6,884 bases of DNA from Thermococcus sp. (GTDB lineage Archaea; Methanobacteriota_B; Thermococci; Thermococcales; Thermococcaceae): the NCBI GenBank assembly GCA_011050175.1, contig DRGF01000022.1, positions 1 to 6,884 on the forward strand, in the 5' to 3' direction. The stretch's first letter is position 1. Every line of letters begins with the position of its first letter. Below, one piece after another: positions 4,156 through 6,884 of the stretch. The notes under the pieces are model-generated. The model had not been told where the DNA came from. It saw only the letters and a program-made list of their open reading frames with translations, and made no database searches. The position numbers and the translations under genes are program-made.

Positions 4156-4728
4156 TTGGTCGATATGAGCAATGTAAAGCTCAGAATTGAGAACATTGTC
4201 GCTTCTGTTGATCTGTTTACGCAGCTCAACCTTGAGAAGGTCATTGAAATCTGTCCCAACTCCAAGTACAACCCTGAGGAGTTCCCTGGGATAATATGCC
4301 GCTTCGAGGAGCCCAAGGTTGCTCTTCTGATATTCAGTTCAGGCAAGCTCGTCGTCACCGGCGCAAAGAGCGTCGAGGATATAGAGCGCGCCGTCAACAA
4401 GCTCATCCAGATGCTCAAAAAGATAGGTGCCAAGTTCGGCCGCGCCCCGCAGATAGACATCCAGAATATGGTTTTCAGCGGTGACATTGGTATGGAGTTC
4501 AACCTCGATGCGGTTGCGCTCAGCCTGCCCAACTGTGAGTACGAGCCCGAGCAGTTCCCGGGCGTCATCTACCGCGTCAAGGAGCCGAGGGCCGTTATAC
4601 TGCTCTTCTCGTCCGGAAAAATAGTCTGCTCCGGAGCCAAGAGCGAGCACGACGCATGGGAAGCCGTTAGAAAGCTCCTCCGCGAGCTGGAGAAGTACGG
4701 CCTTATCGAGGAAGAGGAGGAGTGGTGA
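4156..4728 (+). CDS. tbp: TATA-box-binding protein (TBP)
   Basis: A 190-residue archaeal TBP, the basal factor that binds TATA boxes and, with TFB, recruits RNA polymerase. It is the saddle made of two imperfect ~90-residue repeats: repeat 1 at about 7-95 and repeat 2 at about 98-186. The four DNA-kinking Phe are visible as pairs 17 residues apart: Phe43 (EEFPG) with Phe60 (IFSSG), and Phe134 (EQFPG) with Phe151 (LFSSG). IVASVDL matches NMVFSGDI, and LVVTGAKS matches IVCSGAKS. An acidic C-terminal tail (EEEEEW) is typical of Thermococcales. Start TTG 4156 follows GGAGGTG at optimal spacing and gives [14 protein letters not shown], matching the known Pyrococcus N-terminus MVDMSKVKL; ATG 4165 would drop three residues. 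The upstream region has stacked TATA boxes, and the gene overlaps the following deacetylase-family gene. Confidence 0.98.
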
Positions 4729-5735
4729 AGGCTTTGGCCTTCTCCGTTATCTATTCTCCCGTTTTTCTGGAGCACAAACCGGAGAACTACCATCCCGAAA
4801 ACCCGGAAAGGTTGCTGAGGGCCGTCAAGGCTCTCCAGCGGCTGGACCTCTGGAAGCCGGTCGAACCGGTTCCTGTTCCCGAGAAGGAGCTTCTGAAAGT
4901 TCATTCAAAGGAATACGTTGAGCTCGTGAGGGAGCGGAGCAGGAGCTTCTCATACCTCGACCCCGATACCTACGTCTCCCCCGGTACGTGGGAGGCCTCG
5001 CTCCTTGCCTTCGGGGCATCGAGGCTGGCTGTAAAGCTTGCCCTTGAAAAAGGCGGGCTCCACCTCGCCCTCGTCAGGCCGCCGGGCCATCACGCGGGAA
5101 AATCAGGGAGGGCCTGCAACGCCTCGACTTTGGGCTTCTGCATCTTCAACAACGCTGCATATGCGGCAAAGGTCGCCAAGGAGCTCACCGGGAAGGTTCT
5201 CGTCATAGACTTCGACGCCCACCACGGCAACGGGACGCAGGAGATACTATGGGACGACGACAAAGCCGTCCACATAGACCTGCACGAGCGCGACATCTAT
5301 CCGTGGAGCGGTTATGAATACGAGGTCGGCGGTAAGGGAGCTGAGGGGACGAAAATCAACCTTCCTATGCCCCACTACGCTGGAGACGATGACTACATCT
5401 ATGCATGGAACGAAATAGTTCTTCCGATACTGGCCCAGTTCAAACCGAAGCTTGTTGTCATTTCAGCCGGCTTCGACGGCTTTCTCGGCGAGAATCTAAC
5501 AACGCTAAGACTGAGTGAGCTCTTCTTTGCATACGCAGGTTCAACGCTTTCGCGTTACCCTCTTGCGGTGATTTTTGAGGGTGGCTACTCGGTTGGTCTT
5601 GATAAAGGCTTTCCTGCCTTCATAAAGGGCTACCTAAGTGGAGAAATCCGCGAAGTCCCCGTAAGCCCGTCTTATGAAGCCCTCAGAACCGTTGCAAGGG
5701 TGAAGGAGATACAGTCGGAGTGGTGGGAGTTCTGA
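4725..5735 (+). CDS. Histone deacetylase superfamily zinc amidohydrolase
   Basis: A 336-residue member of the arginase/deacetylase fold that removes acetyl (or related acyl) groups from amines; the prokaryotic family includes acetylpolyamine amidohydrolases, AcuC-like proteins and protein lysine deacetylases. All catalytic parts are present: His122-His123 in RPPGHHAG, the zinc ligands Asp164 and His166 in [11 protein letters not shown], the third ligand Asp251 in [10 protein letters not shown], and the transition-state Tyr288 in EGGYS. The length is normal for the class II-like bacterial/archaeal group. The GTG at 4725 overlaps the tbp stop (GTGA) and has GGAGG (4716-4720) 4 nt ahead; a GTG at 4722 is also possible, and a TTG at 4734 less so. 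The coupling with tbp suggests co-expression. Substrate is unknown; a polyamine, protein lysine or small-metabolite role cannot be distinguished here. Confidence 0.92.
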
Positions 5736-5736
5736 G

Positions 5737-6861
5737 TTAGGGGTGGGTAAGTAGCTTACCCGGGGGTAAGTTGGTTTTCTTTATAACTTCCCTCACAACG
5801 GGGTCGGGGATTGAATAGCCGTCGCTGGTCTTTTCGAGGTATCCATACTTGACAAGGTTTTTCAACAGAGCAGAGAACTTCGCATCGTTTATCTTTCCTG
5901 CCTTGAACTCGACGTACTCTTTTATGGAGCTCCAAGAATCGTTTCCCAGGGAAACTGCCTTCAGGATGTACCAGTACCTCGCGCTGTACCTCGTGAGGGT
6001 CGAGACTTCGTCAAGAACCAGCGCTTTGGCCCTCTCAAAGAGCTCGTCGAGGGCATCTTTTTCAGAGAGCTTTCTAACTCCCCTGAGGTAGCCGTAGAGG
6101 GTCAGCCATCCGACTATACCGTCAAGCTTTTCCACGGCTTTTTTGATTTCGTTGTTTGGAACATCCATACCAAGCTCTTTGAACCCTTTCCTCAGGAAGT
6201 CTTCGCTCTGCTCTTTTGAGAATCTCCTTAGGGTTATCTCCCTTGCATACCTGCCAAAGAGCGGCTTTTTTGGATTCTCAAGTCCTATAAACTCGTGAAG
6301 CATCCCGACCTCGGAGCCAGTCAGCACAAACGTCAGATTTGGCAGGTTGTCCACGGCATAAGCTATGAGACCGTCGTACTGTATCCCCGAAAGCCTGAGA
6401 TACTGGGCCTCGTCAAAAGCTATTATAACTCTCCTGCCTGTCTTCTCGACCCATGCGTCAAGCCTCTCAAGGAGCTCCGCAAGGTCGGGCTTTTCATCGA
6501 ACTCCACCTGAATGCCAGAAACTTTAATCCCTTTAACCCTTGAGAGGACGTTCACGAGTTCCATCCTCACTTTGTCTCTTCCCTTCAGGGACTTGAGGAG
6601 GCCTTCAAGGAGTTTTCTCGCGAGCAACTCTTGAGGAATCGAGCCGTGGGTGAAGTAGAGCGAGCGAACGTCAATCTTGGAGAACGGTTTTCCCGATTCG
6701 GAGAGCGCAACATTGAGGAGAGAGCTTTTGCCGAGCCTCCTGATGCCGAGCAGAAGGATTAGCGTTTCTCCGAGCTCAATGGCTTCGGAAAACTCCCTGA
6801 GCTCTTCCTCCCTATCGTAGAGGTCTTCCCTTCTCCTCTTCGGCTGGAGGTCGAACAGCAA
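5737..6861 (-). CDS. Archaeal AAA ATPase (SSO1545/MNG-type, ATPase_2 family) with winged-helix C-terminus
   Basis: A 374-residue STAND-like archaeal ATPase of unknown role; the family is expanded in Thermococcales and Sulfolobales. The N-terminus LFDLQPKRRREDLYDREEEL is the family hallmark. Walker A is Gly39-IRRL-Gly44-Lys45-Ser46, with the RR insertion characteristic of this family. Walker B is RVIIAFDEAQ, with Asp150 and Glu151. A sensor-1-like strand is TFVLTGSEVG (~177-186), and FGRYAREITLRRFS (~200-215) is the region where arginine-finger and lid residues lie. Residues ~290-365 form a winged-helix-like segment (WSSIKEYVEF through YSIPDPVVREVI). Start TTG 6861, with GGTGGGG just upstream, gives the family N-terminus. 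The frame stays open to the window edge, so a longer form is not excluded. Both ends of the gene overlap an inverted repeat (see repeats). It converges with a 1-nt gap on the deacetylase gene. Confidence 0.9.
   Translation of the reverse strand: MLFDLQPKRRREDLYDREEELREFSEAIELGETLILLLGIRRLGKSSLLNVALSESGKPFSKIDVRSLYFTHGSIPQELLARKLLEGLLKSLKGRDKVRMELVNVLSRVKGIKVSGIQVEFDEKPDLAELLERLDAWVEKTGRRVIIAFDEAQYLRLSGIQYDGLIAYAVDNLPNLTFVLTGSEVGMLHEFIGLENPKKPLFGRYAREITLRRFSKEQSEDFLRKGFKELGMDVPNNEIKKAVEKLDGIVGWLTLYGYLRGVRKLSEKDALDELFERAKALVLDEVSTLTRYSARYWYILKAVSLGNDSWSSIKEYVEFKAGKINDAKFSALLKNLVKYGYLEKTSDGYSIPDPVVREVIKKTNLPPGKLLTHP
5745..5770. repeat. Alternating GGGTAAG / CTTACCC / GGGTAAG elements
   Basis: GGGTAAG (5745-5751), CTTACCC (5755-5761) and GGGTAAG (5764-5770) occur in a row with 3-nt and 2-nt spacers. 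The middle arm can pair with either neighbour but not both. There is no T-run beside them, so a terminator role is uncertain. They sit immediately after the deacetylase stop, inside the ATPase 3' end. Confidence 0.75.
5748..5773 (-). repeat. Left copy of 26-bp inverted repeat flanking the ATPase
   Basis: Read on the minus strand from 5773 to 5748, this matches 6859-6884 on the plus strand at 22 of 26 positions. The first 11 (CAACTTACCCC), a GTAAG block and the final TACTTA are identical; mismatches are three in the middle spacer and one before TACTTA. It encodes residues 365-373 of the ATPase (LPPGKLLTH plus the flanking base pairs). A GGGTGGG stretch lies just outside it. Confidence 0.85.
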
Positions 6862-6884
6862 CTTACCCCACCGTAAGTTACTTA
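6859..6884 (+). repeat. Right copy of 26-bp inverted repeat, truncated by window edge
   Basis: This is the inverted partner of 5748-5773 and covers the ATPase TTG start and its presumed SD. It also holds an internal palindrome: AACTTAC (6860-6866) and GTAAGTT (6873-6879), a perfect 7-bp arm pair around 6 nt. The match runs to the last base of the window, so the true outer end is not visible. Confidence 0.85.

Follow-up and report, generated by a model that had tools for sequence, protein, structure and literature searches.

Thermococcus genes of an AAA+ ATPase family are probably deleted or swapped as units through palindromic sites predicted to bind the ATPase

The window, the whole stretch of 6,884 nucleotides analysed here, comes from contig DRGF01000022.1 of a Thermococcus sp., a heat-loving archaeon (assembly GCA_011050175.1). 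Its right-hand part holds the following genes and sites, with site classes as defined below.

4156..4728, + strand: TATA-binding protein (TBP) gene, often found beside the class A locus in relatives
4722..5735, + strand: histone-deacetylase-family protein (HDAC), convergent neighbour of the ATPase gene, its stop codon touching the 3' site
5735..5771, no strand: 3' site, tandem palindromic units AGTTAGGGGTGGGTAAGT (5735-5752) and GCTTACCCGGGGGTAAGT (5754-5771)
5737..6861, - strand: ATPase gene, 374 aa, TTG start, PF01637 ATPase_2 with a C-terminal winged helix
6861..6884, no strand: 5' site (probable operator), inner unit ACTTACCCCACCGTAAGT (6861-6878) and 5 bases of the outer unit (6880-6884)

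The TBP and HDAC genes overlap by 7 bases (4722-4728), and they adjoin in most of the HDAC-bearing loci that we read. The ATPase gene occupies the interval between the two sites, together with two opposite-strand ORFs of 80-82 aa, and no transposase was found there. Its product matched PF01637 at 69.1 bits (gathering score 33.2) and carries an MCM_C-like winged helix at residues 294-349 (36.8 bits against a threshold of 27), where a structure model also predicted helices and wing strands. This model (mean pLDDT 73.5, pTM 0.50, residues 39-46 at Walker A below 50) was used for the fold family only. Among 14 class A sequences, the Walker A-like GIRRLGKSS was invariant and the Walker B-like AFDEAQYL invariant or nearly so. 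The nearest solved structures, by sequence and also as best fold matches, were 2qen and 2fna of the SSO1545/PABY2304 ATPase_2 family, AAA+ ATPases with a C-terminal winged helix that are related to the window protein over nearly its whole length (E 6e-49 and 1e-72 for 2fna and 2qen); we know of no function for these solved members. Archaeal Orc1/Cdc6 and ORC ranked next after this family, and such a placement of the modelled fold would fit a DNA-binding switch. Searches of PHROGs and NCBIfam with the window ATPase gave no match, and we found no function for the ATPase family in the literature. A reading as a defence system was set aside, the PADLOC matches being weak (strongest for PDC-S27, at 25.2 bits and E 1.7e-6).

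When one is inverted, the ends of the ATPase gene agree at 22 of 26 bases (5748-5773 against 6859-6884, the best 26-nt match between the 100-nt ends), including an exact 11-mer, GGGGTAAGTTG at 5763 and CAACTTACCCC at 6859. None of 400 first-order Markov shuffles reached this value (best 19/26), and a repeat search scored the ends as a 32-nt inverted repeat of 81%. A first-pass annotation of this DNA had reported the match and its 11-base block, and had noted that the right copy spans the ATPase start codon; the coordinates and the position of the right copy were confirmed. However, its reading of the match as the ends of an inverted-repeat unit of ~1.14 kb did not hold, as the ends are pairs of tandem palindromes with the unit ACTTAC-N6-GTAAGT and a 19-bp period. 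Since each unit is itself palindromic, inverted orientation is not the defining feature. The left copy, which had been placed 12 nt past the deacetylase stop, starts at 5735, the last base of that stop codon; the 3' site, found by pattern match with 3 mismatches, overlaps this base and the ATPase stop codon. The 5' site touches the ATPase start codon; the contig end at 6884 cuts it down to one unit and 5 bases of the next. Relatives of the window gene display a complete two-unit 5' site and a TATA box; where a continuation past 6884 with CCCACCCC had been predicted, they instead have the outer palindrome and then the TATA box.

The window genome (70% complete, 1.17-Mb assembly) encodes two further family members. 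One, on contig C11, is flanked by directly oriented tandem-palindrome blocks of 42 bp that are 95% identical; the other, on C92, has a block at its start, and its contig ends ~15 nt past the stop codon. Family matches were obtained in 56 of 61 genomes of the genus with the window protein as query (0-15 each) and in 85 of 94 Thermococcales genomes searched (up to 23 per genome), fragments counted in both cases. We read 112 genes (the window gene, L012-L042 and L123-L202) from the better-scoring matches among those listed, and analysed the upstream regions of the 110 with at least 60 nt upstream, the window gene and L135 being too short there. A palindromic site lay between the TATA box and the start codon in 108 of these 110 genes, from which the site classes were themselves drawn; the exceptions were L036, whose start did not align, and L137, which has one B-like unit. 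A pattern-independent tandem-palindrome score gave 11-12 of 12 for 89 of the 110 genes and for 4 of 550 shuffles.

The sites fell into classes labelled A-I, with 22 genes in A (23 with the window), 22 in E, 17 in B, 15 in D, 10 in H, 10 in C, 5 in G, 5 in F and 2 in I; A and C have common half-sites and were split by protein identity. Most often the 5' site consists of two palindromes; in G, H and I the TATA-to-start interval holds a single, longer one instead. In classes A-F a BRE/TATA-like stretch, with the consensus gAAACCCTTATA in class A, abuts the site, which ends at the start codon. One study places transcription starts in T. kodakarensis ~23 bp past the TATA box (PMC4247193), so on that spacing the first palindrome is expected between the TATA box and the transcription start. 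Winged-helix residues do not follow the site classes in a simple way: the helix consensus differs among classes, but A and C, whose half-sites agree, have different recognition helices. Pattern searches of the 61 genomes found sites of A/C in at least 39, B in 28, E in 34, D in 33 and H in 25, with 0-4 sites per genome for each pattern (for A/C, among the matches listed); reversed-pattern controls gave 0, except for one match in each of two genomes for B. In genome G051 the sites are expanded, with four tandem class E units before a start codon (L153, G051:C68:14963-15035) and three units at a class A 3' end (L215:179-234), as if whole palindromes had been gained and lost.

To look for second copies at the 3' end, each gene's site was compared with the 220 nt surrounding its stop codon, and the 3' regions of other classes served as controls. 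A copy scoring above every control was found for 15 of 22 class A genes, plus the window gene, and for 6 of 17 class B genes, and for none of the 69 genes of classes C-I. By eye, a single unit touches the deacetylase stop in four class A genes that lack a full 3' copy (L028, L031, L032 and L034). Both orientations occur among the class B 3' copies, with L012, L128 and L042 direct and L039 and L041 inverted.

Sites were also present where no ATPase start adjoins them. Our set of 46 such gene-less sites (class A 8, C 6, B 9, E 9, D 7 and H 7) leaves out sites beside other family members (L270, L274 and L277-L279) or adjoining an intact or broken gene (L227, L236 and L280), a class B remnant (L259) and a site too near a contig end (L260); further sites outside the set include G009:C1:1301998, G021:C1:2009746, G047:C25:126652, G040:C365 and G043:C12. 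Beyond the HDAC locus, sites were found through the site itself, so that losses that removed it are hidden. In 44 of the 46, the left and right flanks each matched a filled locus of that class somewhere within 1.5 kb; in L241 and L262 only one flank did so. The downstream match resumed within 45 nt of both the site and the filled locus's stop codon in 27 (A 7, C 4, B 3, E 8, D 5 and H 0), of which 22 also had a best upstream match reaching to within 80 nt of the site; the downstream junction was not close in 19. Two members of the set, L238 and L239, retain ATPase remnants, that is, internal deletions, and three class C members, L217-L219, have an intact class C gene nearby. These three adjoin a conserved protein (MRVFV...), which is duplicated in L218.

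At L216, L208 and L209, a single class A site is joined to the TATA box of the ATPase. The site at L216 is identical to the 3' site of the window and runs straight into the TATA-box sequence from the ATPase promoter, with no ATPase, and the upstream neighbour that it has in common with L014 stands 0.4 kb further on. Empty and filled counterparts in class B were L242/L040, L233/L042 and L235/L041. In class E, the sites L229-L231 have the reverse orientation with respect to the promoter, and genome G015 has a perfect class D site (L261), although the family search with the window protein finds no member there. Between relatives, gene-less sites were 95.9% identical in their arms, 89.4% in their loops and 82-86% in their flanks, an arm value that is biased, and only suggestive of selection, because the sites were found by their arms. 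Two class B gene-less sites with matching left flanks and perfect arms have the loop ACCCCT (L237) and AGGGGT (L240), suggesting loop inversion at the palindromes.

The window's locus was surveyed through its neighbour gene. Its order is TBP-HDAC-[ ]-iorB, where the brackets mark the ATPase position; an extra gene often precedes iorB, and HDAC is sometimes lacking. Counting fragments, 41 of 61 genomes have an HDAC match. A reading of every one of these 41 loci gave 19 filled (including L215, cut by a contig end, and L036, with a disrupted start), one broken (L212), 9 with the site only, 8 with neither gene nor site and 4 of other kinds. By eye, 5 of the site-only loci are clear and L249, L251, L252 and L254 are worn or single-unit. 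On an HDAC tree of 38 loci, one of them from outside the genus and four with broken HDAC left out, the site-only loci required 6 changes, 5 of them forced by well supported branches, against a shuffled mean of 8.2. Site-only loci were somewhat more clustered than random (17 of 500 shuffles as low), and loss events are therefore fewer than site-only loci. Seven of the 8 loci with neither gene nor site fall within two clades, one weakly supported, which may never have had the gene; outside them, 9 gene-less loci retain the site, one (L211) does not, and at most 4 are ambiguous. Class A genes stood at TBP/HDAC/iorB in most loci read and in G092, and three genomes of genus g3 (G064, G067 and G068) have class A-like genes with the same 5' site type and no TBP or HDAC within 1.5 kb.

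These surveys bear on outcomes that the first-pass annotation had named as contrary to its proposals, namely a repeat absent around other family members, an ATPase at the same locus in every related species and a repeat not conserved there. We found the reverse: the repeat recurs at other members, it is conserved at the locus, and the gene is absent from the locus in some species. In L212 a class A ATPase (3-404 and 1683-1769) is split by ~1.3 kb between residues 330 and 333, and a worn site lies beside the deacetylase. Some loci have a gene, UPN, between iorB and the ATPase and others do not, as a comparison of L015 with L016 illustrates; its boundary lies just before the ATPase promoter.

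The history of the ATPase at the window's locus conflicts with that of its neighbours, and in most of the divergent pairs examined the change falls near the 3' site. Identities of ATPase and HDAC correlated at r 0.34 (153 pairs); the values were 0.84 for HDAC and iorB (28 pairs) and 0.64 for ATPase and iorB (55 pairs), each from a different set of pairs. For 11 of 21 loci, the ten without a reference gene being left out, the ATPase and MBF1+HYP+TBP alignments rejected each other's tree (AU p 6e-91 and 2e-68), while their nucleotide identities at the same loci still correlate at 0.61; this conflict does not separate site-based exchange from ordinary homologous recombination. Among six pairs profiled, the level of identity shifts near the ATPase-HDAC junction in L028/L015, L028/L029, L024/L016 and L024/L019. 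In L028/L032 there is no clean change at the site and the level shifts only later in HDAC, and L015/L016 are alike along the entire profile.

We consider it likely that the site is the ATPase's own operator and that two copies of it allow the unit to be deleted or exchanged by recombination. The position of the sites, their classes and their scarcity suggest that each is probably an operator foremost, and likely one for the ATPase's own winged helix. The C-terminal winged helix would read the palindromic site, and binding over the initiation region would repress the gene's own promoter. Recombination between the two flanking copies, homologous or assisted, could then remove or replace the gene. 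Deletion between two copies would leave a single copy, as is the case in classes A and B. For C, D, E and H a 3' copy would once have existed, although the filled alleles examined have none beside the stop codon; the two-site route is seen directly only in A and B, since none of the 69 genes examined in classes C-I showed a 3' copy above controls. That family genes are deleted or swapped as units is probable because one copy remains at many places without the gene. The paired-site proposal of the first-pass annotation, as predicted binding, gains support from the location of the sites at the promoter (108 of 110 genes), from their sequence classes and from their small number in each genome. 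Its mobile-cassette proposal survives in part: one-site gene-less loci in many species and the discordant ATPase history agree with it, but it is not supported as a transposon. A transposon with terminal inverted repeats and target duplication was rejected as the main reading, as the unit contains no transposase, no duplication was seen, the orientation of the second copy varies and each class is mostly at one locus; target-site duplications were looked for by eye, with the window contig ending at 6884 and the site-free loci too diverged.

Pure autoregulation is a possibility to which we give a smaller but appreciable weight. The sites would be operators only, a 3' copy would be a second operator acting by looping or as a roadblock, and genes would be lost by ordinary deletion, the site surviving by selection or chance. 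The presence of the 5' site in nearly all genes (108 of 110) and of the 3' copy in two classes only, the mostly single locus of each class and the identity of gene-less sites (arms 96% against loops 89% and flanks 82-86%, biased because sites were found by arms) all agree with this. However, gene losses repeatedly end at the site, two-site class A and B loci have one-site counterparts, a perfect class D site is present in G015 where no family member was found, and ATPase identity shifts near the 3' site in several pairs. RNA-level action, with the palindromes as hairpins in the leader and 3' end, seems very improbable: the palindromes can fold and the start codon touches the second one, but sites persist where the gene is absent, and the outer unit is conserved yet lies upstream of the transcription start expected from the spacing given in PMC4247193.

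An ATPase that binds class-specific tandem palindromes at both gene ends, represses itself and helps both to excise its gene precisely and to bring it back, and so would form a new kind of one-gene element in Thermococcales, is in our judgement unlikely; if it were true, chromosomes would be sets of addressable docking sites, filled or empty by species. Still more doubtful is a true mobile cassette, for which site-specific recombination at the palindromes, driven by the ATPase itself or by factors acting in trans, would carry the gene into leftover sites. Such a cassette would account for one site when empty and two when filled in classes A and B, for the mixed orientation of the 3' copy and the flipped sites of L229-L231, for class A genes in g3 (G064, G067 and G068) away from TBP and HDAC within 1.5 kb, and for the incongruent ATPase tree. 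Against it, each class is mostly at one locus, no carrier was found in the plasmid, phage and viral-contig collections searched, and the crossover position within the site differs, by eye, between L216 and L208/L209, as in ordinary recombination. Carriage by plasmids or viruses received no support: there was no relative of the window protein at E 1e-5 among 72,556 plasmid and 50,697 phage records, and the viral-contig collection gave no confirmed relative. One paper, however, reports genes for AAA-ATPases, their family not stated, within virus-like regions in T. gammatolerans and T. kodakarensis (PMC2718504).

Our literature search found no description of such sites or empty alleles, and the unit resembles several known systems in part. 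Orc1/Cdc6 initiators bind Orc-box sites next to their own gene, and the ATPase's sites likewise adjoin its own gene, as in Orc1/Cdc6 and autoregulated archaeal repressors, with Orc1/Cdc6 being the next fold match. In contrast to Orc1/Cdc6, the ATPase site classes follow paralogues, the sites lie at the promoter and sometimes the stop codon and are few per genome, and nothing found here points to an origin. Integron gene cassettes are one-gene units with palindromic recombination sites, of which one is left when empty; the ATPase is also a one-gene unit with palindromes whose empty locus retains one site, but it has no array, its promoter is inside and it has a site at both ends. REP/RAYT and IS200/IS605 also have a gene bracketed by palindromes, whereas here the gene is an AAA+ ATPase, with no Y1 transposase, and the sites are not spread through the genome (0-4 per pattern; for A/C, among the matches listed). 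Recombination between terminal copies deletes the body in solo-LTR formation and leaves one copy, as recombination between the site copies of the ATPase gene would; unlike LTRs, the terminal copies here are operator-like sites of 37 bp, and they enclose no more than one ATPase gene. A DNA transposon or insertion sequence differs from class A, which is mostly at one locus, TBP/HDAC/iorB.

The site classes give paralogues a predicted DNA target, and the empty alleles reveal a pattern in how gene and site separate. Should the ATPase act at both sites, this would be a simple, self-contained regulatory and possibly mobile unit; should it not, the loci still form a clear natural series in which gene losses and replacements are bounded by sites. 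Two further observations concern class H-type palindromes. One, ACCCCCCACCAGTAACTGGTGGGGGGT, lies directly after the stop codon of the class G gene L168, as though the locus had passed from one class to another. Others lie directly upstream of a distant family member (25-26% identity) in L270, L274 and L277, hinting that the pairing of site and gene extends to further subfamilies.
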